Source: Halothermothrix sp. DTU029 (lineage in GTDB: Bacteria > Bacillota > Halanaerobiia > Halanaerobiales > DTU029). Taken from it: 39,889 nt of DNA. Where the stretch lies: contig LFRS01000026.1 of the NCBI GenBank assembly GCA_001512435.1, positions 258 to 40,146 of the forward strand, written 5' to 3'. A program made the position numbers and the translations under genes. The notes under the pieces are model-generated. The model saw nothing but the letters and a program-made list of their open reading frames with translations. It had not been told where the DNA came from and ran no database searches. Below, piece after piece: positions 22,032 to 36,989 of this stretch; position 1 is the first letter of the stretch; each line of letters opens with the position of its first letter.

Positions 22032-22901
22032 TTAATCCAGGCCACTGGTGCTCATTGTCTCAACAACCCTTGCTTGATTAATTACAAAAATAACTATTGG
22101 AACTATCATCAAGACCAGGCCAACAGCAGCTCCTACCCCTGCCCTGGCAATTCCACCCCAGATAACTTGGGTTAAGGCATAGGGCAAGGTCTTGAGTTCC
22201 TCACTATATATAAAACGGCTTCCTGTCTCCCGCCATAATTGTTGGACCGAAAGAATCATCAAGGTTAACCAGGCAGGCTTCACAATAGGCATCACTATCC
22301 GCCAGAAAATAGTTAATTCACTGGCCCCATCAACCCTGGCTGCCTCAATCAACTCATCTGGAACCATTGCTACCATAAACTGCCTCATTAAAAAGAGCCC
22401 TAAACTCATTCCCCAGGCCGGAACAATTAAAGCTGCATAAGTATCAACCCAGCCTATCTTGGCCATAATTAAATAATTAGGAATAGCTGTTACCTGATAG
22501 GTAAACATCAAAGATAAAACTACAGTCTGAAATAAAAAGGGCTTAAAGAGAAAATCATGTTTGGCCAGAGGATAGGCAGCCATTGAAGCCAGGATGATAT
22601 GTCCCCCTGTCCCTACTACCACCAATAATAAGGTATTAAAAAAATACCTGGACATAGGCACCCAGGACTCGCCCATAAGAACAAATAGATCCACAAAATT
22701 CTTAAAGGTCGGGTTCCGGACAAAAAACTGTGGAGGATATAACCACAATTCATTTAATGGTTTAAAGGCCTGACTGATCAGAAAAACCAGAGGTATGGCG
22801 GTAAAAACAGCACCAATTCCCAGAAAAGTAAAGAGAAAGACATCGCCACCAAGAGAGCGATTTAATCTCTTCCGCCTGATCCTGAACTTTGCTTTCATCA
22901 T
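22032..22901 (-). CDS. Carbohydrate ABC transporter permease, MalG type (second importer)
   Basis: A 289-residue inner-membrane permease with six predicted helices and the MalG-class EAA loop ELIEAARVDGASELTIFWRI ahead of the fifth helix, which docks the ATPase. The C-terminus (VVETMSTSGLD) is typical of carbohydrate uptake permeases of the CUT1 group. It starts at the ATG at 22901 (a second ATG follows) with AAGGGGG upstream, nine bases after the MalF-type partner. It is the last gene of the operon. The partner binding protein is most probably the giant one two genes upstream. No ATPase gene is adjacent. Confidence 0.93.
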   Translation of the reverse strand: MMKAKFRIRRKRLNRSLGGDVFLFTFLGIGAVFTAIPLVFLISQAFKPLNELWLYPPQFFVRNPTFKNFVDLFVLMGESWVPMSRYFFNTLLLVVVGTGGHIILASMAAYPLAKHDFLFKPFLFQTVVLSLMFTYQVTAIPNYLIMAKIGWVDTYAALIVPAWGMSLGLFLMRQFMVAMVPDELIEAARVDGASELTIFWRIVMPIVKPAWLTLMILSVQQLWRETGSRFIYSEELKTLPYALTQVIWGGIARAGVGAAVGLVLMIVPIVIFVINQARVVETMSTSGLD

Positions 22902-22910
22902 TTATCCCCC

Positions 22911-23870
22911 TTAATCCCTTAATTTAGCCAAATACTTCTGCACAAGCCTCTGGGTAATAACCATAAAAGCAAAAAGGATAACTGCTATAGCCGAAGCATA
23001 ACCCATTTCAAAACGAATATTGCCATAATCCATCAAATGGCTGACTATAGTCCTTGCAGCATAATCAGTACTGGGAAAACCAACCAGGGCAATCAGCTGG
23101 TCAGCAGCTGCAAAGGATTGAGTTATGGTCATAATTGCGCCAAACATCATATGTGGTACTATCTGGGGCAAAGTAATATACCATAATTCCTGCCACCTAT
23201 TGCGGATACCATCTACAGCCCCAGCTTCGTAGAGGCTGGTATCTATACCCTGCAAACCACCGATAAAGGAAAGAAAACTTGTACCCAGACTGGACCAGAG
23301 AACACATAGTATTGATACAGGCATTATATAGGCTGGATCCTGAAAAAACTGAATTGGCTCTGTAATAATACCCCAGTAAAGAAGGATACCATTAACATAT
23401 CCATAAGCACTTCCATCAAACATTATCTTCCAGATAAAATATACCTGGCCAGTTAAAGCTGGAGCATAAAATAATAGGGTTAGGAAAGCCCTGATTTTAG
23501 GTTGTAATTCATTAATCATCCAGGCCAGTATTAAACAGGCAAAAAAGCTAATTGGTCCTGTCACCAGTGCAAAAACAAAGGTATTCTTGATGGCAATTAA
23601 GAAGACATCATCATCAAGAAAGAGCCGTAAATAATTATGCAATCCTTCCCATTGTGGTGGTTCCAACATATTATAATAAGTAAAACTTAAAGCTATGGCG
23701 ATAATCACTGGCAGTATTGTGAAAACAAAGAAGATAGTCCAATAGGGCATCACCAGAAGATAAGAAACCTTATTCTCTTTTAGATCACTGATTACATAAG
23801 TGGATATTCTTTTTATCTTTCCACCAATCCCCCTAATCAAACCCTTATTACTTTCTAGAACAGGTTGCAT
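22911..23870 (-). CDS. Carbohydrate ABC transporter permease, MalF type (second importer)
   Basis: A 319-residue CUT1 permease with six helices and an EAA loop, SLYEAGAVDGIRNRWQELWY followed by ITLPQIVP; EAG in place of EAA is a mild variation. The N-terminal 40 residues are cytoplasmic and basic. The ATG at 23870 follows GGAGG at seven bases. It lies 44 bp after the giant binding-protein gene and forms the heterodimer with the following MalG-type permease. Sequence similarity to the other MalF-type permease in the locus is only that of the family, so the two systems are not a recent duplication. Confidence 0.93.
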   Translation of the reverse strand: MQPVLESNKGLIRGIGGKIKRISTYVISDLKENKVSYLLVMPYWTIFFVFTILPVIIAIALSFTYYNMLEPPQWEGLHNYLRLFLDDDVFLIAIKNTFVFALVTGPISFFACLILAWMINELQPKIRAFLTLLFYAPALTGQVYFIWKIMFDGSAYGYVNGILLYWGIITEPIQFFQDPAYIMPVSILCVLWSSLGTSFLSFIGGLQGIDTSLYEAGAVDGIRNRWQELWYITLPQIVPHMMFGAIMTITQSFAAADQLIALVGFPSTDYAARTIVSHLMDYGNIRFEMGYASAIAVILFAFMVITQRLVQKYLAKLRD

Positions 23871-23914
23871 AAAATAACCTCCACTCTTTAATCTAAGCTT
23901 TTCCTGCTCCGACT

Positions 23915-26878
23915 TTAATCTGCTTCTTCAATCCAGTACATTTTCTGATATTCTGCCGGTAGTTTTTCCAGTTCTGTCTCCAGGCCGAACTCTCTTCTTT
24001 TGTTGCTAATCTCCTTATTTATTTTCCGATTATACTCCAGTAAAGTCTCTCTTGGCGGTTCGTGGGAATAAATCACTTTCCGGAAAGCGTTATCTAAATG
24101 ACGCCCCACCATATAACCTCCTGGAACCTCCGGTAAACCTTTAACCCATTCCCATTGTTCCAACAATACTTCCAGCTCCTCTACCCTCCAGGGTAAAAGT
24201 TGAAGAGCTTCTATATTGGCTGTGGGGTATCTGGCTGCTGTACCCATAATACTTTCCAGTTCCCGTCCAAACCTTACCTGGGTTTCTGTACTGGTCCACC
24301 ATTTCAAAAATTCCCAGGCTGCCTCTTTATCTCTGGCATTCTTCATAATAATGGCTCCTGGCCCCTGGTTTGCTGTACCATAACCAAGAGCCGGGCTTGT
24401 TCTATCTATACTCCCGTCTTCCCGAAGAGTACCAGGAAGCAAGGTAAAACCCCATTTACCCCTCAGCTCTGGTGCAAAGACCTCCAGGTGATTTCGGAAG
24501 GTATAGCCGGTTATCAACAAAGGCATCTCTCCCATCCTGAAATAATTGGCATAATCATAATAAAGGGGCAAATTGTAGAGTTCATATAATTCTGTCCATC
24601 TAGTAAAAGCATCAATGGCCAGTTCTGAATCAAGATTGGTTTCAATACCATCTACCTTATATAATTCACCACCACTCTGGTAGAGGAGCATTAACATGGT
24701 GGAAACACCGGCATGGGCTACTATGCTCCCGGCTCCAGATGTTGCTTCACCAATACCACCTACTGCAATCTGTTCAATATTGGAATAGGGTAGGCCAAAA
24801 TCCATATTATTTTTCTGTAATTCTGCAATAACATGGAGGACATCATCCCAGGTCTGGGGCAGGTCAACGCCCATTTCCTGTAAGATATCAGTCCGGTAAA
24901 AGAGTACAGGGAAGATTTGCTGTTCAGGTAAGGCAAAAACACTATCCCTATATTTAAAAGGCACTAAAGAACTATATTTAAACCTGGTTGCAACCTCAGG
25001 AAAATCCTCAAACTCTGTCAGGTCTACAATAGCCTTACGGATAAAAAAGTTTATAGGAACTGCCTGGGAAACAGATAAGGCTACATCTGGCCCTTTATCC
25101 GCCAGGGTTGCTGGTAATATAACCCCTTCCTGGATTAGCTCCAGATTAACCTGAATCCCCGTCACCGGAGTAAAAGAATCTTCGATCATGGTTTTCAGGG
25201 TCTGGGCCTGATCCCGGCCTCCCCCAATCCAGACCTTGATGCTTTTGCCTTCATCATAGACATTTCCTATCTGATTATAATCATGGGTAAATGAAGCAAT
25301 AAAAGATTTAAGCTCATGAACCAACACCTGCCAGACTGATGGACTGGCTACAGGCATTTTTTCATCTGGACCAGCAATAACCAGATAATCCATTTGTAAG
25401 GGTTGTTCAGTTGTCATTAAGATCCAGCTACCAAGAGATGCCAGGTTGTCCCTTAACTCTGCCAGGCTTCTTGGTATTCTATCATCTGGCCTTTCTGCCA
25501 ATAAATCCAGCTGATGAGCCAGGCTATTTAAAAGAGAGACATGGTCTCCTTTTTCTCCAGTATATTCCTCCAGTTCAAAGGCCAATCTTCTTAAGGTCTT
25601 ACTCTGTTTCTGTAATCTATCTACCAGTGAAGGAATCTTATTCTCCAGTTGATAAGTCCGCATTGGGTCAGGATTACGGGAGGTAATCATAATAATCTGC
25701 CGATAAATAGTGGATAGTTCATAGAGGACTGAATTTGTATTAGCTATCATATCAGCAAAATCCCCCAGAACAACCTCCAGTTTAATTATATTTTCCCCTT
25801 TATCCAGGTAAATTAGATAGGGGTCTTCTGCTGATTTACCCGGGACAACCATCTGGTAATAATTAGAGTAATTAAAACGGATTGCCTCTGCTTCCTTAAA
25901 AGGAACCTGTCCATTAATGTATAATTTCCGTACTGTAAAGGAACCACTTCTGACATTTTGCTTGGCTTTTATCCCAATTTTATAAAGACCTGCTTCTGGA
26001 ACATCTACTTTCCAGGCTATCCACTGGCCTGCTTTGTTCCAGCTTTGCCCCCCAATGGTATTCAGGCGTATCTGGGCAGGATGGTATGGCTCTACTGTAG
26101 GATCCGCTTTATCATAGACAGGATAAAGGGTTTTACTGGAACGGTAAAGAGCATCTTCAGCCTGGACTATACAGATAAAATCATCAACTTTTTTATAACC
26201 CTTTTCCCTATATTCTTTTACTACTTCTTCGTAAGCTAAAGGACTGGCATACTGGAAAAGCTTCAGATAAGCTATAGCCATAGGCTCCCTTCTGGATACC
26301 AATCTTACTTTATTGCTTCCTTGATTGAAATAAAATAGATAAGGTTCAGAACTATAACCCATGGAATCCTCCAGTAGTTTGGTCTGCCAGATAAACACTT
26401 CTTTCTGGGGGGATCTAATATGGTTTCCCTGATTATCTATCCAATATCCATACTCATCTGTCCAGACCCGGGGAAATTCCAGAAACCTGGCTCCATCAAA
26501 GGGCATTTCACCATTAATAACTAAAGCTCTCTCAATATCCCCCCCTCTTCCTTCCAGGGGAAAATATTTTATCTCTATATTATAAAGGCCACTTTCAGGG
26601 ATCTCCACCTCCCATTCAACATAGCCACTTTCACTGGTAGCCAGGGCTTTTATGCCGGCCAGATTATCTATTACCTGGATATTATCCATATCTGTATCTA
26701 CATAATCCCAGGCTGGAATTATTAACTCCAAATCAGGCCTGTCGGCCTTTCCAGCCTTGCTCAGGTATTCCATATAATCCATATCTATTACTTCCAGGAC
26801 CCGGGCTTTTATGGGAGTTCTTATTAACATCATAAATATAAGTACAGTAATAATTATAAATATATCCCTCTTCTTCAT
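23915..26878 (-). CDS. Giant extracellular solute-binding protein with two N-terminal beta-sandwich repeats
   Basis: A 987-residue exported protein, more than twice the size of usual sugar-binding proteins. Residues 5-25 form a signal or anchor helix. Two repeats follow (about 80-210 and 232-372), each with the pattern W-x-V-(E/D)-(I/V)-P-E-(S/A)-G-L-Y-x-I-x-I-K and later R-x-L-x-I-N-G-x-x-P-F: see EWEVEIPESGLYNIEIK and AWKVDVPEAGLYKIGIK. They resemble carbohydrate-binding-module-type beta sandwiches. A helical linker (374-545) leads to a family 1 solute-binding domain (about 546-987; IKVWIGGG, LYRTDILQEMGVDLPQTWDD). I use the ATG at 26878; the longest frame adds 39 residues with no ribosome-binding site. 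No lipobox is visible, so it may stay anchored by its helix. Presumably it feeds the MalFG pair that follows. Confidence 0.9.
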   Translation of the reverse strand: MKKRDIFIIITVLIFMMLIRTPIKARVLEVIDMDYMEYLSKAGKADRPDLELIIPAWDYVDTDMDNIQVIDNLAGIKALATSESGYVEWEVEIPESGLYNIEIKYFPLEGRGGDIERALVINGEMPFDGARFLEFPRVWTDEYGYWIDNQGNHIRSPQKEVFIWQTKLLEDSMGYSSEPYLFYFNQGSNKVRLVSRREPMAIAYLKLFQYASPLAYEEVVKEYREKGYKKVDDFICIVQAEDALYRSSKTLYPVYDKADPTVEPYHPAQIRLNTIGGQSWNKAGQWIAWKVDVPEAGLYKIGIKAKQNVRSGSFTVRKLYINGQVPFKEAEAIRFNYSNYYQMVVPGKSAEDPYLIYLDKGENIIKLEVVLGDFADMIANTNSVLYELSTIYRQIIMITSRNPDPMRTYQLENKIPSLVDRLQKQSKTLRRLAFELEEYTGEKGDHVSLLNSLAHQLDLLAERPDDRIPRSLAELRDNLASLGSWILMTTEQPLQMDYLVIAGPDEKMPVASPSVWQVLVHELKSFIASFTHDYNQIGNVYDEGKSIKVWIGGGRDQAQTLKTMIEDSFTPVTGIQVNLELIQEGVILPATLADKGPDVALSVSQAVPINFFIRKAIVDLTEFEDFPEVATRFKYSSLVPFKYRDSVFALPEQQIFPVLFYRTDILQEMGVDLPQTWDDVLHVIAELQKNNMDFGLPYSNIEQIAVGGIGEATSGAGSIVAHAGVSTMLMLLYQSGGELYKVDGIETNLDSELAIDAFTRWTELYELYNLPLYYDYANYFRMGEMPLLITGYTFRNHLEVFAPELRGKWGFTLLPGTLREDGSIDRTSPALGYGTANQGPGAIIMKNARDKEAAWEFLKWWTSTETQVRFGRELESIMGTAARYPTANIEALQLLPWRVEELEVLLEQWEWVKGLPEVPGGYMVGRHLDNAFRKVIYSHEPPRETLLEYNRKINKEISNKRREFGLETELEKLPAEYQKMYWIEEAD

Positions 26879-27036
26879 CCTTTCTACCCCCCTCCTCCTA
26901 TCTAAAACTCCTGCAGAGAATTTAAGAAAACCTTTATTATGAAAATAACTTTTTATAGTTTTTATTATGAATATAAAAGATAAAGGAATAAGCATTTTAA
27001 TTTCATCTACTTATAAATAAGGAATAAAGCCAGAAG

Positions 27037-27065
27037 TCCTGTGTCCCTAAACAAGGGACACAGGA
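27037..27065 (-). other. Strong intercistronic hairpin between the two binding-protein genes
   Basis: A 12-bp perfect stem, TCCTGTGTCCCT paired with AGGGACACAGGA (27037-27048 with 27054-27065), around a five-base loop, 16 bp after the stop of the smaller binding-protein gene. The minus strand then reads CTTCTGGCTTTATTCC, which is no true U tract, so it is better seen as an mRNA-protecting or partially terminating hairpin that sets relative expression of the binding proteins. Confidence 0.6.
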
Positions 27066-27080
27066 TTATAATATACTTGC

Positions 27081-28391
27081 CTAGTCATTAAATTCTTTGT
27101 CCAGAACCTGCTGAATTACTGGTGCCACCGCTTCCATAGCAGAAGCAGGACTCTGTCCTTCATAAAGGGCCTTACCAATAGCTCCACCCAGTGGATAACT
27201 GGTATCCCAGGTTGGGCCAAGGATACCTTCCATAATATACATCTCTCCGGACCATTCTTCTGCAGCCCTTACCAATACTTCATAGGAAATCTCATCCAGT
27301 GCTGCTTCGATCAACATTTCTTCTATGCCTTCTTCTTCCTCATCTGCCCTGAAAAGGAACCTGTGCAGGGCAACTAAACCCATGGGGTATTTAGAATTAA
27401 CAGGCAGATAAAAGGAATCAGCCTGCCTGGCCGGGAATTGGTAATCATCTACATGAGGTCCTTTTGGTAATGGTACTATACCATATTCAAATTCAACAAC
27501 ATCTGTAAAGCTGGGATCAATGATATTCCATAAGGGGAAGGAGGCCATAGCTACCTGGCCAGCCAGGAATTCTTTCTGTTGCCAGTCCCCTTTGGAAATA
27601 TTCATCAGCTGGGACCACTGTCTCAATTTTCCTAAATAATAAGTAGCTGCTTCACTATCATAGGCAAAAACATGCCTGCCATTTTCGTCTATTATAGTAG
27701 GATTAGCACCATTGGAAAAACCCCAGACCGCAATATCTTGCTGCCCAATACCCCATTGATCCAGTTCACCATCACCATCAGTATCCCGGGTTGCCCTGAT
27801 GGCAATTTCCTCCATAGCATCATAAGTCCATTCACCACTTAGATAAAGTTCATCCAGGGCTGGTAATCCATCCCGGGCAAATATTTCTTTATTCCAGACA
27901 AGGAATTCTATAACACCAATCGGACTTTTACCTGCTCCCAGGGAATACTTTTCTCCTCTCTTGACAAAGGTATCTGTTACAACCCTCTGGGAAAAGAGGA
28001 GATCATCATAATAGGAGGCAGGCACTATTTCACTAATTGGGTATAAGGCATTTTTAGCAATCATACCCATAACTGCATTACTGGGCAGCATCCAGATGTC
28101 ATAACCTGACTCATCACTTAAAAGGCGGTTCATCATATTTTCAGCTATTCCATCCCAGGGAAGTCCCAGGTAGCGGATTTCTCCTATATTAAACTTCTCC
28201 ATAGCCTCTGCCAGCCGGCCAGGATAATCCCCACCTTCCATAAAACTTTCTCTGGGATCATAAAAGCCAACATAGGTTACAGTAGCTCCGCCAAAGTCAA
28301 TATTACCGACATCAAAAGGCAGTTCATAGGCAAATAAGCAAGCAGAGAACAATAAGCCAAGAGCTAAGGTCATTAAAAACAACTTTCTCAC
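27081..28391 (-). CDS. Extracellular solute-binding protein (first importer)
   Basis: A 436-residue family 1 solute-binding protein with a hydrophobic signal peptide (residues 5-20). LFSAC at 14-18 could be an atypical lipobox, with C18 lipidated. The mature part contains binding-protein features: FGGATVTYVGFYDP, WNKEIFARDGLPALDELYLSGEWTYD (domain-closing segment), AMASFPLWN and a Tyr/Trp-rich C-terminal lobe. Start is the GTG at 28391, with GGGGG eight bases upstream. It follows a MalG-type permease gene after a 120-bp gap that holds a hairpin, and precedes the giant binding protein, so the locus has two binding proteins back to back. Substrate not deducible; beta-linked glucan oligosaccharides are suggested only by the GH1 gene. 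Confidence 0.93.
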   Translation of the reverse strand: MRKLFLMTLALGLLFSACLFAYELPFDVGNIDFGGATVTYVGFYDPRESFMEGGDYPGRLAEAMEKFNIGEIRYLGLPWDGIAENMMNRLLSDESGYDIWMLPSNAVMGMIAKNALYPISEIVPASYYDDLLFSQRVVTDTFVKRGEKYSLGAGKSPIGVIEFLVWNKEIFARDGLPALDELYLSGEWTYDAMEEIAIRATRDTDGDGELDQWGIGQQDIAVWGFSNGANPTIIDENGRHVFAYDSEAATYYLGKLRQWSQLMNISKGDWQQKEFLAGQVAMASFPLWNIIDPSFTDVVEFEYGIVPLPKGPHVDDYQFPARQADSFYLPVNSKYPMGLVALHRFLFRADEEEEGIEEMLIEAALDEISYEVLVRAAEEWSGEMYIMEGILGPTWDTSYPLGGAIGKALYEGQSPASAMEAVAPVIQQVLDKEFND

Positions 28392-28483
28392 TACACAATC
28401 CCCCTTTTTTTATTTTGTAATGAACCCTTAACAATCTCTTTATCTATCTACCATTAATCCCCCCTTGTATAAATGTATTTTTT

Positions 28484-28510
28484 AAATTCCTGTATAGATG
28501 ACAGGAATTT
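28484..28510 (-). other. Intercistronic hairpin before the solute-binding protein gene
   Basis: A 10-bp perfect inverted repeat, AAATTCCTGT and ACAGGAATTT (28484-28493 with 28501-28510), directly after the stop of the MalG-type permease (28512). On the minus strand it is followed by an A run, so it is not a terminator; it may stop 3' decay or mark an RNA processing point that boosts the binding-protein message, as known for binding-protein genes in other CUT1 operons. Confidence 0.5.
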
Positions 28511-28511
28511 A

Positions 28512-29537
28512 TTAGCCTACAATACCGGTTCTCTGGATACTTTCAATAAAATACCGCTGCATAAAAGCATAGAGGACCAGCAAGGGAGCTATATAGAGAA
28601 TCATTCCAGTATGCCTAATGATGGAAGCATACTGACTCTTCAATTTATTATGATCACCATCAAGGGCCTTCAAGGCTGCCCCCTGTAAAGCCTGTAAGAG
28701 AAAATTCCCCTGTCCACTTAAAAAGATAGTATTATAGAAATAGTCATTCCACTGCCAGACAAAAGAGAAGAGAAAAATTACTACTAAACCAGGAATAGCA
28801 CCAGGCAACATAATCCTGTAGAAGGTTTTAAAAACACCTGCTCCATCAACATAAGCCGCTTCCTCCAGATCCCTTGGCATCCCCTTAAAAAATTGTCTCA
28901 TCACATAGATAAACAAACCATTCCTCAAACCAACTGCTGTCGCAGAGATTAAAATAAAAGGCCAATAACTGTTTAATAAGCTGATCCCTGGTTCAGGCAA
29001 CAAACCAAAGAAGGTAAAATACTTAAAATTAAGAGAAAGAGGTACAGTAATCATGGTAGGTGGTACTACCAGAGTAAATACTGCCAGGGAAAAAATGAAT
29101 TTATTACCAGGAAATTTAAAGCGGCCAATTCCATAGGCTACAGCAGTACAGGATATTAATTGCAGTATACTTACTGTCAGGGTCAATAGTAATGTATTAA
29201 AAAAACTTACAGGATAATTCATGGCCTTCCAGGTAACCCTGTAATTATCCAGAGTAAAATTTCGTGGAATCCACCGGACAGTCTGGTCAAAAATGTCTGC
29301 TTCAGTCATAAAGGAGGTAACCAGTTTTTCCAATAAGGGCATCAGGATAATATAAGAAACTCCGATCAAAAATAAGGCCCTGATTATGCTTATTGAAATT
29401 CCTTTAATTTTCTTATTGAATCTACTGGCCCGGTTCCGGTCTTTTTCCCGGTTAATCTGATCCAGGATATCTGCTGCCTGGAGCCCGGCTGTTCTGACAA
29501 ACCTGACCTTTACACCTGTATCAGTATTTGTTTCCAT
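28512..29537 (-). CDS. Carbohydrate ABC transporter permease, MalG type (first importer)
   Basis: A 341-residue CUT1 permease with a long charged N-terminal tail (about 50 residues before the first helix) and six membrane helices. The ATPase-docking loop reads DLEEAAYVDGAGVFKTFYRI followed by MLPGAIPG, a canonical EAA motif. The ATG at 29537 follows GGGGAGG at about seven bases. It lies 12 bp after its MalF-type partner and upstream of the 436-residue binding protein, which should be its receptor. The extra N-terminal length compared with the other MalG-type permease of this locus (289 residues) shows that the two systems are distinct. Confidence 0.93.
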   Translation of the reverse strand: METNTDTGVKVRFVRTAGLQAADILDQINREKDRNRASRFNKKIKGISISIIRALFLIGVSYIILMPLLEKLVTSFMTEADIFDQTVRWIPRNFTLDNYRVTWKAMNYPVSFFNTLLLTLTVSILQLISCTAVAYGIGRFKFPGNKFIFSLAVFTLVVPPTMITVPLSLNFKYFTFFGLLPEPGISLLNSYWPFILISATAVGLRNGLFIYVMRQFFKGMPRDLEEAAYVDGAGVFKTFYRIMLPGAIPGLVVIFLFSFVWQWNDYFYNTIFLSGQGNFLLQALQGAALKALDGDHNKLKSQYASIIRHTGMILYIAPLLVLYAFMQRYFIESIQRTGIVG

Positions 29538-29549
29538 AATTATCCTCCC

Positions 29550-30440
29550 CTATTCCTGATAAAATACCCATCTGGAAGAAACTTTTATAGTAATACCCAG
29601 GATTATAAGAATCATCACAAAATACAAAACAGCCATTGCCATACTGACACCATATCCTGCTCCCATTATGGCTTCATCTCTCACTAACATCACCACTTCA
29701 TTAGTGGTTGTTAAGAAGGTATCAATAATTGTATAAACTGCATTTGTCAGGATAATTGGACTCATCATCGGGAAGGTTATCAACCAGAATGATTCCCAAC
29801 CTGTAGCTCCTTCCACATCTGCCGCCTCATAAATAGAAGGTGGGATAGACTGTAGTCCAGCCAGAAAGATTAAAATCTGAATTCCGGAAGCCCTGATAAT
29901 ATCAGGTATTCTGTCTACAGCCCCAAGAATAAACTCTATAAAACCCTCAGGCAGCTTGGTATTCATCAATAAATTCCTCAAGCCAACACCGGTAAAAATT
30001 AATTCTGCATTCCTGGCCCCATGGAGGAGCTGTGTAACCATATCATCGATATCCATCTGAATAATTATCCCTGCACTCAGGATAACCGGTAAAAAGAAGA
30101 TTGTTCTGGCCAGAAACCGGCCTTTAAACCTCTGATTTAAAACAAGGGCTGCAAAAAAACTAAAGGCTAAAACCAGGGGTACATTGGTTATGGTATCTAA
30201 AATAGTTTCCACAAATATTCTCAAAAAATCAGGATGAACATTTAAAATATAGCCGTAATTATCGAAACCTTTAAAGTTTAAAACAAAGCCCTCCCTGCTT
30301 ATTACCAGCTCATTAAAACTGAAAATAAAGGCCTGAATAAAAGGATAGAAAAAAAAGAGAGTAAAGCCCAGCAAAAAAGGCAGGGAAAATAAATAGCCAG
30401 CCAGTATCCTTCTTTGTTTAAAAGATAACCTCTTTTTCAT
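29550..30440 (-). CDS. Carbohydrate ABC transporter permease, MalF type (first importer)
   Basis: A 296-residue CUT1 permease with six helices and the EAA-loop sequence SIYEAADVEGATGWESFWLI followed by TFPMMSP. Its ATG (30440) overlaps the stop of the DUF5696-type gene in an ATGA arrangement, with AGGAGG eight bases upstream, so translation of the secreted glycosidase-like protein and the importer is directly coupled. The region between helices three and four contains an extra segment (residues about 128-175, GVGLRNLLMNTKLPEGF) compared with the other MalF-type protein, perhaps an extracytoplasmic loop that contacts the binding protein. Confidence 0.92.
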   Translation of the reverse strand: MKKRLSFKQRRILAGYLFSLPFLLGFTLFFFYPFIQAFIFSFNELVISREGFVLNFKGFDNYGYILNVHPDFLRIFVETILDTITNVPLVLAFSFFAALVLNQRFKGRFLARTIFFLPVILSAGIIIQMDIDDMVTQLLHGARNAELIFTGVGLRNLLMNTKLPEGFIEFILGAVDRIPDIIRASGIQILIFLAGLQSIPPSIYEAADVEGATGWESFWLITFPMMSPIILTNAVYTIIDTFLTTTNEVVMLVRDEAIMGAGYGVSMAMAVLYFVMILIILGITIKVSSRWVFYQE

Positions 30441-33163
30441 TGCAAATCCTCCTGTATAACTTTAAAATCTTCCCCCTTTACCTCTACCCCTTCTACCATT
30501 ACTGCCTCTTGATTATAATTAACTATAACAGCTTTACCATTTGCATAAACTGTTTTAAAGACATTATCTGCTAATTCCATATGGTCGATTATTCTCTGAT
30601 TATAGGTTTCTTTTAAAAGTTCATTTAAAGCCTGGTACAGTTCAGCTGCCTCTGGCAACCATTGCCGATAATTCAGGGCATACTCGTTCTCAAAGACTGT
30701 TCTTTTAACTGCTGATGATTCACTATAAATACCCCGGTAATAGGGGATAGCTCCTGTCTCCATAGATTTTAGTAGGGAGTATTGATTATATAACATATTC
30801 AGGGGCTGGCCAGAATAATCTATATAGCCATGTAAGACAATTGGTAAAAAAGGTATGCCTTTATCAATAATATTGGCTCCAGTACTGTAAAGAGGCGTTT
30901 TTACTACCTGGTCTACATAGGGTAAAGTATAGGCATTTCCTCCTTCTACCAGCAATTTCACTTCCTGTTCTTCTTTTAACTTCTTCAATACATTGACTAC
31001 ATTATTCAAGGACTGTTGCCGGTCAATATTCTTAGCAGGATTAGTTCTATAATCAGAGTTTAATTGTTGCCCCAGGTGTCTTAAAGAAAGGGCGCCTATA
31101 TTATATTTACTGTATTCTTTAAGAAAATTATCTACAAAAGATGAAAGAAACTTGCTGGATAATAGCAATCTTCCTCCCTTAAATTTTTCCTGTTTAGTAG
31201 CCAGATTATAATCAGGGATACTGGCTATCTTTCTATTTAAAAAACGGGCTGCATATCTCCTATTTAAAAAATCATTCCAGAGATTAGTTTTATATATATT
31301 ATAAAAACTCAAATCCGGATATACTTCTATACCTTTGGCCTCCAGAAAAGTTAAGAGGTCTTTAAAATCTTTTTCAGTACCGGCTGTTTTTTCCAGTCTT
31401 AGTTTCCTGGGTAAATAATGGTGTTCTCCACCGGCCAACCAGCCTGTTAAACGTAATTTTAGATCCTTAATCCCCTCTTTATCTAATTCTTCGATGATTT
31501 CTTTAACCTGCTGAAAATTTGTCACTGCTTTTGTCAGCCTTCTGGGTATACCCAGGACAGGCTTTGTCTCATGAATAGAAGTAAGCAGTTCCAGCATAAA
31601 GGGGATATTTTCCCTTTCTTCCAGGGGGCTTAATTTATATTTTCCTACCAGATACTCCTGATATCTATGGGCCATGCCAACATAATTGGCCTTTTCTCCA
31701 TTTAAGAAACTATATCTTATCTGGATATTTCCTTCAGGTAGGCGGGATTGAAAGAGGCTCATCTTTGTTTCTTCCCATTCATAGCCAAAGACAAGTTCTG
31801 TTCTTTGCATGGTAATAAAACTGGCCTGGACTGTATTATAGGAAGAGGTTCGCCCGGCTATATCTGCTTTAATATTAGCAAAGGCATCTCCCTCCTCTAT
31901 AATGGCCAGAAAGGCTTTATCTCCATTTTTTAAGCCATAAACCGGAATATGTAATTGTTCAGTTATTTCAGGAATTCTCTCTCTCGGCTGCAGGGCATAA
32001 TCCAGCCCATAAAGGTTTTTCCCATAGGGTTTTGCATCCAGGCGGCCATTATTTAAATAAATCAGGGCACCAGACCCATCAGGAACAAAGATATATCCTT
32101 CGGCATCACTTCCTGCAGCACCAAAGTAGGGTAATATATCCAGTGAATAAAGGGGATAAGTCTCCATAGAACTCTTACCTGCTACCAGGACTTTTTCAGG
32201 ATAGGTAACCTTATCTAAGGGCACCCTGACCAGAAAATCCTTCCCATCCAGCAAATAGTCGATAGTAACATGAAAAACACGTTGATTAGGTACTGGAGGC
32301 TCCAGATTGAGTTCTTGATAATCTTTTGCCAGCTCCTCGGGACTATAACCACTATTCTGGAAAGCCAGGAAAATATTATCCCGGTCCCAGGCCCGGATAG
32401 TCCTCTTCTGTACATAGACCTGCTTATCTTTTAGATAATTTAAATCTTCTGCCTTGAGGTCAGCTATACTGGCCAGATCATTTCTGTTGTTAACATAAAT
32501 ACCCAAAAAGTGCAGGACCAACCTTTCAAAATCCCTTTCCCTCATCTCCTCTAAAGGAGTGGTAAAGGCATAGTTCCCTAAGACTCCATCTTCATCAAAG
32601 TTGTAGATATCAAGTTTCCTCCCCTCTGGGCCCAGGGGCTCCAGACCAAAGAGGTGATATTGGGAGAGCAAAAACTCCTGTTCCTCAACAGGCAAATTCT
32701 TCAAGACCTTCTCTTCCATACTTTTTTGTTCAATAATTAGAGGAATTAAGTCTTCTTTTTTCCACTCCTGGCCAACTACATAATCAATACTGACTCCATT
32801 TTCTATTAAATTAATCTCATATTGGTTAAAAAGGATACTATCGGAGTAATTATTCATAAACATTTGTCTATTACCAGGTAGATAATATGATAGGGAAAAC
32901 TGGGCATTTAAGACATCTTTATCTGAACCCCTGGCCACCTTCTCTTCCTTATCCCGTCCAGGAGGATTGGAATACCAGATAATCCCACTATCTTTTTCCT
33001 GAACAGCCACTTCTGTTGTGTCATAATTAAGATAAAGGATTAAATGTTCATTTTCTGCCACCAGACTATAGGCATCTAAGTCAGCTGCCCTTAGGTCTAC
33101 TGCAAAAAGGCCAGAAATTATATAGAAAGCAAGTAATATGGCCCAGAATCCTTTTCTTCTCAT
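30437..33163 (-). CDS. Secreted DUF5696-type protein, glycosidase-like architecture
   Basis: A 908-residue exported protein with a signal peptide at residues 5-25. A long N-terminal part (30-500) looks like an all-beta supersandwich: LYLNYDTTEVAVQEKDSG, GYIFVPDGSGALIYLNNGR (354-373, which I associate with the DUF5696 family) and FVGYEWEE-like strands. Residues about 520-815 have the alternating pattern of a TIM barrel: LKLRLTGWLAGGEHHYLP, GIEVYPDLSFYNIY, GALSLRHLGQQLNSDY, VKLLVEGGNAYTLPYVD and LPIVLHGYIDYSGQPLN. A small beta domain ends it. Supersandwich, barrel and small beta domain together are the layout of GH31/GH36/GH101-like glycosidases, so a wall-side glycan-cleaving or glycan-binding role is plausible but unproven; catalytic residues cannot be named. 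Start ATG 33163 after GGAGG-rich DNA; a longer frame reaches into the previous gene. Confidence 0.8.
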   Translation of the reverse strand: MRRKGFWAILLAFYIISGLFAVDLRAADLDAYSLVAENEHLILYLNYDTTEVAVQEKDSGIIWYSNPPGRDKEEKVARGSDKDVLNAQFSLSYYLPGNRQMFMNNYSDSILFNQYEINLIENGVSIDYVVGQEWKKEDLIPLIIEQKSMEEKVLKNLPVEEQEFLLSQYHLFGLEPLGPEGRKLDIYNFDEDGVLGNYAFTTPLEEMRERDFERLVLHFLGIYVNNRNDLASIADLKAEDLNYLKDKQVYVQKRTIRAWDRDNIFLAFQNSGYSPEELAKDYQELNLEPPVPNQRVFHVTIDYLLDGKDFLVRVPLDKVTYPEKVLVAGKSSMETYPLYSLDILPYFGAAGSDAEGYIFVPDGSGALIYLNNGRLDAKPYGKNLYGLDYALQPRERIPEITEQLHIPVYGLKNGDKAFLAIIEEGDAFANIKADIAGRTSSYNTVQASFITMQRTELVFGYEWEETKMSLFQSRLPEGNIQIRYSFLNGEKANYVGMAHRYQEYLVGKYKLSPLEERENIPFMLELLTSIHETKPVLGIPRRLTKAVTNFQQVKEIIEELDKEGIKDLKLRLTGWLAGGEHHYLPRKLRLEKTAGTEKDFKDLLTFLEAKGIEVYPDLSFYNIYKTNLWNDFLNRRYAARFLNRKIASIPDYNLATKQEKFKGGRLLLSSKFLSSFVDNFLKEYSKYNIGALSLRHLGQQLNSDYRTNPAKNIDRQQSLNNVVNVLKKLKEEQEVKLLVEGGNAYTLPYVDQVVKTPLYSTGANIIDKGIPFLPIVLHGYIDYSGQPLNMLYNQYSLLKSMETGAIPYYRGIYSESSAVKRTVFENEYALNYRQWLPEAAELYQALNELLKETYNQRIIDHMELADNVFKTVYANGKAVIVNYNQEAVMVEGVEVKGEDFKVIQEDLQ

Positions 33164-33188
33164 ATACCACCATCCACCTTCCTCCTGT

Positions 33189-35414
33189 TTATAATCGCAG
33201 GAAAATTTCATTATATATTTCAGAAACAAACCGCATTACATGTTCTCCCAGATTGAAAAATAAGACCCCGATAAACATAGTGAAGGCGATTCCGAAAATA
33301 ACCAGAATAGTGACCAGAATATTCTTGCTACTATCATACTGATGAATAGTCATGGTCCCAAAAAAGAGTAAGAACAATGACCAGAGTAGGGAAATTACTA
33401 TAAATGAACCTATTAATACCCCTTCCTCTTCAAGGAGGAAATTACTGATGATTGTTACCGGTATATTGATAATAATAACCGGGGTAAAGGCATAGGCAGT
33501 AGCTATATAGATATCACTAAAGGTCCCTTTTCCCTCCATTAAGGTTGTTAAGGACCAATTGACTATGACCCAGAGCATAAAGGGGATCAAGACACTGCTA
33601 AATTCAAATAATATGTTCAGATTGGCCAGATCATTAGTGTTAAAAATAAAGCCCATATACTGTCTCTGGAATACATAAGTAAGTGAAAGGAAAATTAAGA
33701 GGACTGTGGCTGCAGGGAGATTCCCCCTTTTTTCATGTTTTAAATCCCAGAAGCCATCAAAGGGATGAAAAATTACATATCTGGCAAAGGATAATCCATC
33801 AATTGTCTTCACCAGATATAAATATAATATTCCCAGTTTTCCTTTTATAAAACTGGCCAGTGTCCATTGCTCAGCTTTGATATAATTCATGGCCGCAAGC
33901 TCCGAACTGGCAATACCCTTCAGGACCAGAGGTCTTAGCCCCTCTCCTATTTTTCTATAAATTTTTTTCCTAATAGATAGGAGCAAAATTAACAATACTG
34001 CAACAAAAATATAGGTATTTATATTGGCTTCAATTACCTCTTTACGATAGAGTTCAAAGGCCTTGGAGTAATTACTTCTATCCTGGCCAAGTTTGAAATT
34101 TACCATAGCCTCCAGAAAATTATCTGCCTGCAAATGGGCTTTACCAATCCCGGTGTAGGCAAGGTCATAATTGGCATTAATATCTTTTAACTGACTCCAT
34201 ACCTGGGCAGATTCCCGATATAAGCCCCGGTTATAAAGGTCGAGGGCGGTATGAATTAACTTCTGATAATAAGTTGGAGTAAAAACAGTAATACTATTCA
34301 ATTGCTCATCCAGAACCAATATATAATCATCTAAAACGGTTAAGGCCACAGGTGAAAGAAAATTACCCCTGTTATTTCCCTTTTCCCCAAAGACATATAA
34401 GAGGTCACCATAGTAGTCATATGTAAATACCCTTCCTCTTTCCTTATCGAGGACACTATATATTCCATTTTCCCTTGACCAGATGTCCACAAAACTTGAA
34501 CCTGGCAAAATATACTCTCCCTGGGCATTTCGCAGGGATGAACCGTGATCACCAATAGGAGGGGTAAAACCTTCTCTCTTCAGGACATCAGCACCAGCAG
34601 GGTTTAGTCTCCTGACAGCTTCTTCCTGCCGGATCTGGCCTGAAGCTACTGTAGTATAGATAAAACCTTTCTCATCAACATGAAGATTACTATACTCGGT
34701 AGGAAGAATCAGGGATAACCTTTCCTGCCTGGCCCTGGAAGAAAATCTTCTCCAGAGATAATCAATAATATTGGGATTAACCCTCGGTGCCCCAATAAAA
34801 CCTCTAAATTTTCCATCCAGATCAAATTCCATAATTCCTTCATAGACTTTATCAGCGATTACATAAGTTCTCCCCACATTATCAACTGATATTTTTATCG
34901 GAAAATAATTGAAATTCTGATTAAATAAATCCTCATTTCCCGGGACCGGTGAACTAATTATACGAAGCAGTTCACCGGAACTATCCAATACCACGATACG
35001 GTTATTATTGCGATCTGCTATATAGAGGACTCCCTCTTCACTAACATGAATCCCATATGGCTGATTAAAGGTATCTTCCTGGCCATTGTTATTAAATGAA
35101 GAGATAACCTTAACCAGATTCCAATCTTTATCTATAACTACAATGCGGTTATTACCAGTATCCGCTACATAGACCAGGGAATTATTCCAGGCAAAAATAT
35201 CCTGGGGTTTTCTAAAATTATCTATTTCCAGTTCCTTGCCACCTATTACCTTTAATGGTTGATAGGCCTGTGGTGCTGCTACCGGTTCAGACCAGAAGTC
35301 ATAGGTATAACTATGGTAGGGAACTGAATAGGTAGAATGACCTGCCCCAACCAGGCAGGAAGATATCAGCAGGAGAACAATAATTAAGGCTAGAAGCCGC
35401 CCTGTCCTTAGCAA
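33189..35414 (-). CDS. NHL beta-propeller / TPR / Yip1-domain membrane lipoprotein
   Basis: A 741-residue multidomain protein. A signal sequence with a lipobox-like LISSC (residues 16-20) suggests lipid anchoring. Residues about 60-390 form an NHL-type propeller, with repeats such as PQDIFAWNNSLVYVADTGNN and YGIHVSEEGVLYIADRNNN, each ending in NRIVVxD. A TPR-like pair (LDLYNRGLYRESAQVW; AYTGIGKAHLQADNFLEAM, about 395-460) leads to a membrane helix (472-490), a linker, and a C-terminal Yip1-type domain with about five helices (550-735). Proteins with this layout occur next to DUF5696 proteins and CUT1 permeases; no function is assigned. The propeller faces outward and could bind or sense glycan while the Yip1 part scaffolds in the membrane. 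TTG start (35414) with AAAGGAGG eight bases upstream. Confidence 0.85.
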   Translation of the reverse strand: MLRTGRLLALIIVLLLISSCLVGAGHSTYSVPYHSYTYDFWSEPVAAPQAYQPLKVIGGKELEIDNFRKPQDIFAWNNSLVYVADTGNNRIVVIDKDWNLVKVISSFNNNGQEDTFNQPYGIHVSEEGVLYIADRNNNRIVVLDSSGELLRIISSPVPGNEDLFNQNFNYFPIKISVDNVGRTYVIADKVYEGIMEFDLDGKFRGFIGAPRVNPNIIDYLWRRFSSRARQERLSLILPTEYSNLHVDEKGFIYTTVASGQIRQEEAVRRLNPAGADVLKREGFTPPIGDHGSSLRNAQGEYILPGSSFVDIWSRENGIYSVLDKERGRVFTYDYYGDLLYVFGEKGNNRGNFLSPVALTVLDDYILVLDEQLNSITVFTPTYYQKLIHTALDLYNRGLYRESAQVWSQLKDINANYDLAYTGIGKAHLQADNFLEAMVNFKLGQDRSNYSKAFELYRKEVIEANINTYIFVAVLLILLLSIRKKIYRKIGEGLRPLVLKGIASSELAAMNYIKAEQWTLASFIKGKLGILYLYLVKTIDGLSFARYVIFHPFDGFWDLKHEKRGNLPAATVLLIFLSLTYVFQRQYMGFIFNTNDLANLNILFEFSSVLIPFMLWVIVNWSLTTLMEGKGTFSDIYIATAYAFTPVIIINIPVTIISNFLLEEEGVLIGSFIVISLLWSLFLLFFGTMTIHQYDSSKNILVTILVIFGIAFTMFIGVLFFNLGEHVMRFVSEIYNEIFLRL

Positions 35415-35572: not shown

Positions 35573-36931
35573 TCAGGCATAAAGGGCCTCCCCCTTTGTC
35601 TCGATGACTTTTTTGTACCAGTAAGCAGAATCCTTAATAATCCTCTCCCCTGTTTCAAAATCTACATAGATTAAACCAAAGCGCTCCAGATAGCCCTGGG
35701 CCCATTCAAAATTGTCCATCAAGGACCAGTGGAAATAACCCTGAATATCAACACCATCTTCTCCAGCCTTTTGCAATTCCCTTAAATACCTGTTAGTAAA
35801 ATCTATTCTCTGGGGATCATGTACCTTACCATCCACTGCCACCCAATCTACATTGGACATACCGTTCTCTGTTATTATGACAGGTTTTTTGTACCTTTCA
35901 TAATAAAATCTTGGTCCCCAGTAGAGGGCTTCAGGAGTAATAGGCCAGTAATAAGCATTTCTTGCATAACCTACTTTTCTCTCTGCAGGCACAGCCTGAC
36001 CTTTATCATCCAACTTTACACAAACACCCTGATAGATATTTACACCAAAGAAATCAATTGGTTCTGAAATAATTTTAAAATCATCGGTTTTAATTTCTGG
36101 CAGATATTCCTCAAATATCTTTAAACCCTCTTCTGGATATCTACCCAGAATTACAGGATCCATCCACCAGTTTATAGCCCAGAGCCCTTTATCTTCCACA
36201 GAAAAACTTGCTCTTCTGGCAACCTGAATATTCTCTTCACTCTTTGTTGCAGGAAAAACAGGAGAATCTGAAGGAGCCAAACCAATACGGCAATCCTGTA
36301 CAGAGGTCTCTCTAATTACCCGGGCCCCTTTTCCATGAGCCAGGAGTACATTATGGCTTATCTGTAATAAATCTTCCATACCCAATTTTAAACCTGGAGC
36401 ATGAACTCCATCCTTATGGCCCAGATTTACAAAAACCTGAGGTTCATTAATAGTTATCCAGTTCTTAACCCGGTCTGACAGCTTCTGGACAACAACTTCT
36501 GTGTATTCGGCAAACCAATCTGGACTATCTGGATTCAGCCAACCACCTTTTTTGTATAATTCATAGGGATAATCCCAATGAAAAAGGGTAATATATGGCT
36601 CAATACCATTTTCCAGTAGTTCATCTATTAATTTATCATAAAAATCCAGGCCTTTCTGATTTACTTTGCCTGTGCCATTAGCTAAAATCCTTGGCCAGGA
36701 TAGAGATAGACGATAAGCCTGAAGGCCAAGCTCCTTCATCAGTTGAACATCTTCCTTATACCTGTGATAGTGGTTACAGGCAATATCCCCGTTGTCTCCA
36801 TTTTCAATAGCTCCTTTTTGGCGGGTAAAAATATCCCAGACTGATAATCCTTTTCCATCTTCATAGGCGGCACCTTCGATTTGGTATGAAGCTGCTGCTG
36901 CACCCCAGACAAAGTTTTCCGGAAATTTCAT
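35573..36931 (-). CDS. Glycoside hydrolase family 1 beta-glycosidase
   Basis: A 452-residue cytoplasmic TIM-barrel hydrolase. The N-terminal FPENFVWGAAAASYQIEG and DIACNHYHRYKEDVQLMKEL are the GH1 signature region; the acid/base Glu is E163 in TINEPQ and the nucleophile is E355 in ITENG. SLMDNFEWAQGYLERFGLIYVD ends the aglycone side. There is no signal peptide, so it should split beta-glucosides or related oligosaccharides after ABC import; nothing indicates a 6-phospho-glycosidase, which would suit a PTS instead. Ile-Asn (TINEP) replaces the more frequent Phe/Leu/His-Asn, a minor change. The ATG at 36931 follows AAAGGAGGG; an upstream ATG lacks such a site. It follows the ThuA-like gene after 58 bp. 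Confidence 0.96.
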   Translation of the reverse strand: MKFPENFVWGAAAASYQIEGAAYEDGKGLSVWDIFTRQKGAIENGDNGDIACNHYHRYKEDVQLMKELGLQAYRLSLSWPRILANGTGKVNQKGLDFYDKLIDELLENGIEPYITLFHWDYPYELYKKGGWLNPDSPDWFAEYTEVVVQKLSDRVKNWITINEPQVFVNLGHKDGVHAPGLKLGMEDLLQISHNVLLAHGKGARVIRETSVQDCRIGLAPSDSPVFPATKSEENIQVARRASFSVEDKGLWAINWWMDPVILGRYPEEGLKIFEEYLPEIKTDDFKIISEPIDFFGVNIYQGVCVKLDDKGQAVPAERKVGYARNAYYWPITPEALYWGPRFYYERYKKPVIITENGMSNVDWVAVDGKVHDPQRIDFTNRYLRELQKAGEDGVDIQGYFHWSLMDNFEWAQGYLERFGLIYVDFETGERIIKDSAYWYKKVIETKGEALYA

Positions 36932-36989
36932 GAGAAGCCCTCCTTTATTATGTTTATTCATTTGTATCTTGTTATATTTTAGTAATGAT

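Follow-up and report, generated by a model that had tools for sequence, protein, structure and literature searches.

A large solute-binding protein with two CBM35-like domains in a conserved two-importer cassette of Bacillota

The locus and its genes

The window (the whole stretch of Halothermothrix sp. DTU029 DNA analysed, 39,889 nt) carries on its minus strand a single frame of 987 codons, with its ATG at 26878 and its stop ending at 23915, the limits given for it in an earlier note on this DNA. AGGAGGAGGGGGGT, an AGGAGG-rich ribosome-binding sequence, lies 5′ of the ATG. The product, here called bigSBP, is more than twice the size of a usual solute-binding protein (SBP), as that note had remarked, yet normal within its own family (about 950-1,050 aa). 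The rarity that the note implied did not hold up: the family is widespread and sits inside a conserved cassette. A gene-fusion artefact or sequencing error was rejected, given the single open frame and full-length homologues in dozens of genomes, as was a one-off fusion, since family and cassette are both widespread.

Judged by sequence and structural model, the domain order from N to C terminus is a hydrophobic segment, two CBM35/CBM6-like beta domains (D1 and D2), a helical bundle and a presumed cargo-binding SBP domain (Table 1). Clostridial homologues also begin with a long hydrophobic helix, in which no cleavage site is obvious. A convincing lipobox is absent from the family: lipobox-like matches are confined to 2 of 42 homologues, and in one of these the match is at residue 7, so that the start of that protein is probably mis-called. 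An identity as a lipoprotein was rejected on this count.

In agreement with the earlier identification, the C-terminal half belongs to the carbohydrate-type SBPs: the Pfam SBP_bac_1 match at residues 559-867 (1.5e-18) scores 68.3 bits against a curated cut-off of 26. An NCBIfam scan of the protein assigned no family, and the public annotation of its relatives is "extracellular solute-binding protein." The best sequence match of the SBP domain is Lin1841, the beta-1,2-gluco-oligosaccharide SBP of Listeria innocua (5ysb, 5ysd, 5yse, 5ysf; 1.2e-11 with the single sequence, 1.1e-25 with a profile), which is also among its best fold matches. Lin1841 differs in being only about 400 aa long, without N-terminal domains, and identity in the fold alignment is about 20%; its ligand is therefore not transferable to bigSBP.

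Directly downstream lie perm2A and perm2B, both CUT1-type permeases with an EAA-type loop; such loops are retained in all four cassette permeases of the window. From this arrangement, perm2A and perm2B are predicted to form a CUT1-type ABC sugar importer with bigSBP as its receptor and a saccharide as the predicted ligand. The cassette contains no ATPase gene; a single UgpC-family match above the curated cut-off (496 bits) is found elsewhere in the genome, and a shared UgpC/MsmX-type ATPase presumably powers the importer.

Within positions 22032-30440 (minus strand) a single cassette combines two SBPs with two full CUT1 permease pairs. The cassette, of seven genes, has a conserved order: large SBP, perm2A, perm2B, NHL/YIP1 (as a single gene or as two), DUF5696, perm1A and perm1B, to which a second SBP is frequently added; this order is sometimes permuted, the window being one such case. 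The DUF5696 protein is GH129-like, with no fully conserved Asp or Glu among 36 homologues, and may therefore be a glycosidase-like protein without catalytic activity. The NHL-propeller/YIP1 protein recurs as a cassette member and is split into two genes in some Clostridia.

Table 1. Features of bigSBP, its cassette and the free-standing relatives of its N-terminal half
Feature	Position	Strand	Basis
Large SBP (bigSBP), 987 aa	23915..26878	-	Translation and ribosome-binding site; SBP_bac_1 1.5e-18, residues 559-867
N-terminal hydrophobic segment, residues 1-25; candidate signal peptide or membrane anchor	26804..26878	-	Model helix 2-20
D1, residues 44-212; diverged CBM35/CBM6-like beta domain with conserved insertion D148, G151, N152, E160, W164, D171	26243..26749	-	Repeat of D2; AF2 blocks mostly 84-97; 2w47 E 0.0023; conservation counts
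D2, residues 230-375; CBM35/CBM6-like beta domain, QxE motif 239-241, invariant N273, W280, R317, F335, always-aromatic 341	25754..26191	-	Sub-threshold CBM_35 276-307; 5x7g E 9.2e-6; counts in 42 homologues
Helical bundle, residues 376-540, with strand 494-502 and helix 515-531	25259..25753	-	AF2 secondary structure; kept with D1-D2 in free-standing 544-aa homologue
SBP_bac_1 domain, residues 541-965	23984..25258	-	Pfam; Lin1841 sequence match; fold search 5ci5, 5ysb
CUT1-type permease perm2A	22911..23870	-	PF00528 3.5e-8; EAA-type loop YEAGAVDG...LP
CUT1-type permease perm2B	22032..22901	-	PF00528 1.4e-8; EAARVDGAS...MP
Second, ordinary-sized SBP, 436 aa; most variable cassette member	27081..28391	-	SBP_bac_1 1.4e-10; lost or diverged in most cassettes
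CUT1-type permease perm1B	28512..29537	-	PF00528 1.8e-14; EEAAYVDGAG
CUT1-type permease perm1A	29550..30440	-	PF00528 1.5e-7; YEAADVEGAT
DUF5696 protein, distant GH129 relative	30437..33229	-	PF18952 9e-190; profile match to 5opq, 5wzn ~1e-9
NHL-repeat beta-propeller with YIP1 membrane domain	33189..35414	-	PF01436, PF04893
GH1 beta-glucosidase adjoining the cassette	35573..36961	-	TIGR03356 over cut-off; PF00232
Free-standing D1-D2-bundle proteins	L099:7178-8812, L101:5151-6743, L104:977-2584

The N-terminal half

The two copies of a motif set that had been noticed in this half are present, at a spacing of exactly 200 residues: IPESGLYNIEIK at residues 93-104 and VPEAGLYKIGIK at 293-304, each followed by a second motif (RALVINGEMPF at 117-127, RKLYINGQVPF at 317-327). 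The repeat exceeds chance: a Smith-Waterman alignment of residues 44-212 with 230-375 scores 111, against 29.8 +/- 5.2 (maximum 73) for 2,000 shuffles (z 15.5). Compared as profiles (hhalign), D1 and D2 match with 99.4% probability (E 4.4e-21, 33% identity over 92 columns). By these comparisons they are diverged copies of one domain.

Pfam matches to this half (CBM_35, Golvesin_C, and CBM_6) are all sub-threshold. CBM_35 scores 19.6-23.6 bits in the window protein, the higher value with the N-terminal half alone, against a curated cut-off of 28; the domains are therefore called CBM35-like here rather than filed as members of the family. When the N-terminal halves of 17 homologues were scanned singly, CBM_35 was matched in every one (17/17, best 3.7e-8). 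Against PDB sequences, the D1 profile matches the CBM35 structures 2w47 and 2vzp weakly (E 0.002-0.005), and the D2 profile the CBM35 domain of CITase (5x7g, E 9.2e-6).

An AlphaFold model of the full chain, built from a 17-row alignment, has a mean pLDDT of 70.5. Its beta domains (about 50-210 and 275-372) are mostly confident; the SBP-domain part is poor, mostly 40-65, so that the placement of the domains relative to each other cannot be read from the model. A fold search with the whole chain is dominated by the SBP domain, and no CBM fold appears among its 50 top matches, which are SBPs and other folds; the N-terminal half was therefore modelled and searched alone. This model (mean pLDDT 84.3, pTM 0.82) consists of two beta domains, and a Foldseek search against the PDB ranks CBM35/CBM6 structures first (2w1w 9e-8, 2w47 3e-7, then 3zm8, 2cdo, and 2vzp), with target-normalised TM of about 0.6-0.7 for isolated CBM modules. 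The proposal of two CBM-like beta sandwiches in this half is thereby borne out in silico.

Among known systems, the closest to this half is CBM family 35 (2w1w and 2w47 of Clostridium thermocellum, 2vzp of CsxA, 5x7g and 3wnk of CITase), the top folds for D1-D2 as well as their weak sequence matches. The window protein differs from these in falling below the Pfam cut-off, in the absence of the classical site residues from D1, and in having its modules joined to a transport receptor rather than an enzyme.

The two copies differ in what they have kept. In D2, N273, W280, Y299, R317, and F335 are invariant (42/42 homologues), and position 341 always holds an aromatic residue (W, Y, or F; likewise 42/42). 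The domain carries QxE where the N-terminal calcium motif of CBM35 is E-x-E. W280 and position 341 are candidate residues of the CBM6/35 cleft, judged by pattern rather than by coordinates. D1 has no conserved aromatic pair in the 42-homologue counts (the corresponding position is A80 here and varied in other homologues) and no E-x-E motif, and so seems to be degenerate, without the aromatic and calcium-site residues expected of CBM35. It has a near-invariant loop of its own (D148, G151, N152, E160, W164, D171 in the 42 homologues).

What the earlier note called a helical linker does contain helices, at 374-490 in the model, and is better described as a conserved bundle. Proteins of about 450-545 aa that match D1, D2, and the bundle are found in one family of genomes (G065, G111, G149, G183). 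One of 544 aa (L099), taken together with three relatives, matches the whole N-terminal half with a profile probability of 100% (E 1.3e-44, 470 columns), and its alignment stops exactly where the SBP domain would begin. The occurrence of the whole half as a free-standing protein makes it a module rather than a linker. In G065, SBP-domain relatives (423-473 aa) also stand alone. A candidate split gene (L068) was rejected, the proteins between its SBPs being unrelated to D1-D2. The same genome family encodes a 377-aa tandem CBM35 protein (L102:6934-8067), this one above the Pfam cut-off, in an operon with CUT1 relatives of perm2A and perm2B and two MalK-type ATPases. This operon and the free-standing N-terminal halves are independent arrangements; they link the CBM-like pair to importers and show that its covalent attachment to an SBP is dispensable.

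Distribution and conservation

Among 399 genomes sampled across the phylum Bacillota, the N-terminal module (counted at E < 1e-60) is present in 38. The large SBP and DUF5696 occur together in 36 genomes, one without the other in 2 and 1, and neither in 360 (Fisher p ~1e-47, uncorrected for phylogeny). The window's own genome has a second bigSBP copy, at 52% identity. Homologues, often several per genome, are found in Halanaerobiales, Clostridia, Lachnospiraceae, Butyrivibrio, and Paenibacillus, and gene order is kept across Halanaerobiales, Clostridia, Butyrivibrio, and Paenibacillus. Two public examples, WP_073386906.1 (Butyrivibrio fibrisolvens plasmid pNP243) and WP_110042926.1 (Paenibacillus cellulosilyticus), are matched over 90-95% of the chain and lie in cassettes of the same order, NHL/YIP1 and DUF5696 genes included; they differ in sequence (31-40% identity) and in their neighbours, GH43 for the former and UgpC with LLM-class oxidoreductases for the latter. 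A two-component system also adjoins the Butyrivibrio copy.

The neighbours vary generally: GH1 in the window, GH10 in many cases, and elsewhere GH38, GH43, GH16, or GH2/GH27, with LacI or GntR regulators. Among 63 flanking proteins, 12 are GH10, 3 GH38, 2 GH43, 2 GH16, and 7 LacI. Since the flanking enzymes differ from one cassette to another, this type of cassette, taken as a whole, apparently handles different carbohydrates.

Within the cassette, conservation is uneven. Median identity to the window copy over 25 loci is 58-59% for perm2A and perm2B, 52% for D2, 49% for the SBP domain, 45% for D1, 41% for the bundle, 40% for NHL/YIP1, 36% for DUF5696, and 32-38% for perm1B and perm1A. For the second SBP, a recognisable counterpart is present at just 9 of these 25 loci, some of the loci being cut short ahead of it. 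On these figures the large SBP with perm2A and perm2B is the stable core of the cassette and the second SBP its variable part. Conservation in D1 and D2 is roughly at the level of the SBP domain among cassettes that apparently serve different sugars; this also fits docking to a shared partner.

Possible roles of the N-terminal half

SBPs are usually thought to bring small sugars freely to the pump. Halanaerobiales are a diderm lineage; in a diderm, a secreted SBP is periplasmic, and a true polymer would not normally arrive there. A long ligand of bigSBP would therefore be an oligosaccharide, not an intact polymer. Capture of such an oligosaccharide chain by D2, followed by hand-over to the SBP domain, is the reading we favour, with about an even chance of being correct. 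The N-terminal hydrophobic segment would then anchor the protein at the membrane or send it across, with the bundle as a possible spacer; the paired aromatics of D2 might grip one part of the chain, while the SBP domain would pass its end, or a short segment, to the permeases of its importer, one of two in the conserved carbohydrate-uptake cassette. D1, its classical site lost, could be a structural or docking domain.

The main rival to capture and hand-over is docking to cassette partners. The invariants of D1 and D2 recur in cassettes whose neighbouring enzymes differ, an odd pattern for a CBM that gives specificity; a shared protein or glycan partner fits as well as cargo capture. The N-terminal half might thus be a putative assembly platform rather than a glycan binder, its sandwiches and bundle docking the SBP to DUF5696, the NHL propeller, and the permease loops in an uptake complex at the membrane. 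The near-perfect co-occurrence of large SBP and DUF5696, the gene order kept across four groups, the many near-invariant residues in D1 and D2 despite different neighbouring enzymes, and the far greater variation of the second SBP all point this way. Such a platform is harder to reconcile with free-standing N-terminal halves in genomes without a strong DUF5696 match, or with D2, whose retained aromatic pair is what a sugar site would be expected to show; we consider it possible. It is unlikely that the half itself binds nothing and consists of decayed CBM folds, kept as a stalk that raises the SBP domain above the membrane or envelope: the length and sequence of a stalk would be expected to vary, yet this module is constant in size, with dozens of near-invariant polar and aromatic residues, and it exists without an SBP. 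The CBM35 match below the cut-off, the loss of canonical site residues from D1, and the lack of a lipobox, which calls for some other anchoring or spacing, are nevertheless what a stalk would predict. Finally, bigSBP might be mainly a sensor, reporting glycan binding through the NHL/YIP1 membrane protein, with transport by perm2A and perm2B secondary. The regular presence of a propeller-plus-YIP1 protein in the cassette and the two-component system beside the Butyrivibrio copy would suit this role, which we regard as very improbable: perm2A and perm2B are the most conserved members and keep their ATPase-coupling loops, so transport seems central.

More speculatively, and with considerable doubt, the large SBP might form an undescribed receptor complex with the GH129-like DUF5696 protein and NHL/YIP1, a complex common to two CUT1 importers, with D1, D2, and the bundle as its core for both glycan capture and docking. 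If so, monoderm and diderm Bacillota would gain a counterpart of the capture machinery of Bacteroidota. The SusD/SGBP surface glycan systems of that phylum are alike in general idea only, a glycan being caught near the importer by extra binding modules; they use other proteins and a TonB-dependent importer where an ABC importer is found here, and no Pfam match to SusD or SusC was seen among the window gene products scanned. The likeness is one of analogy, not membership. The conserved receptor with its two CBM-like domains and bundle, tied as it is to two importers, a GH129-like protein, and a propeller membrane protein, suggests that many Clostridia, Paenibacillus, and Halanaerobiales have an organised apparatus for uptake.

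Each part of bigSBP is of a known kind, a CUT1 SBP and a CBM35-like fold. The open literature searched (weak evidence, most subscription papers lying outside it) names DUF5696 nowhere and does not describe the cassette, and a search of it for CBM-SBP fusions gave nothing relevant. The domain combination is present in databases and, as far as we searched, apparently undescribed.

Two further observations concern neighbouring genes. The operon with the tandem CBM35 protein also encodes a protein matching BetaGal_ABD2, GH2_N, and CBM4_9. On the Paenibacillus cellulosilyticus plasmid (L120), the cassette is followed by three LLM-class flavin oxidoreductases, unexpected beside a sugar importer.
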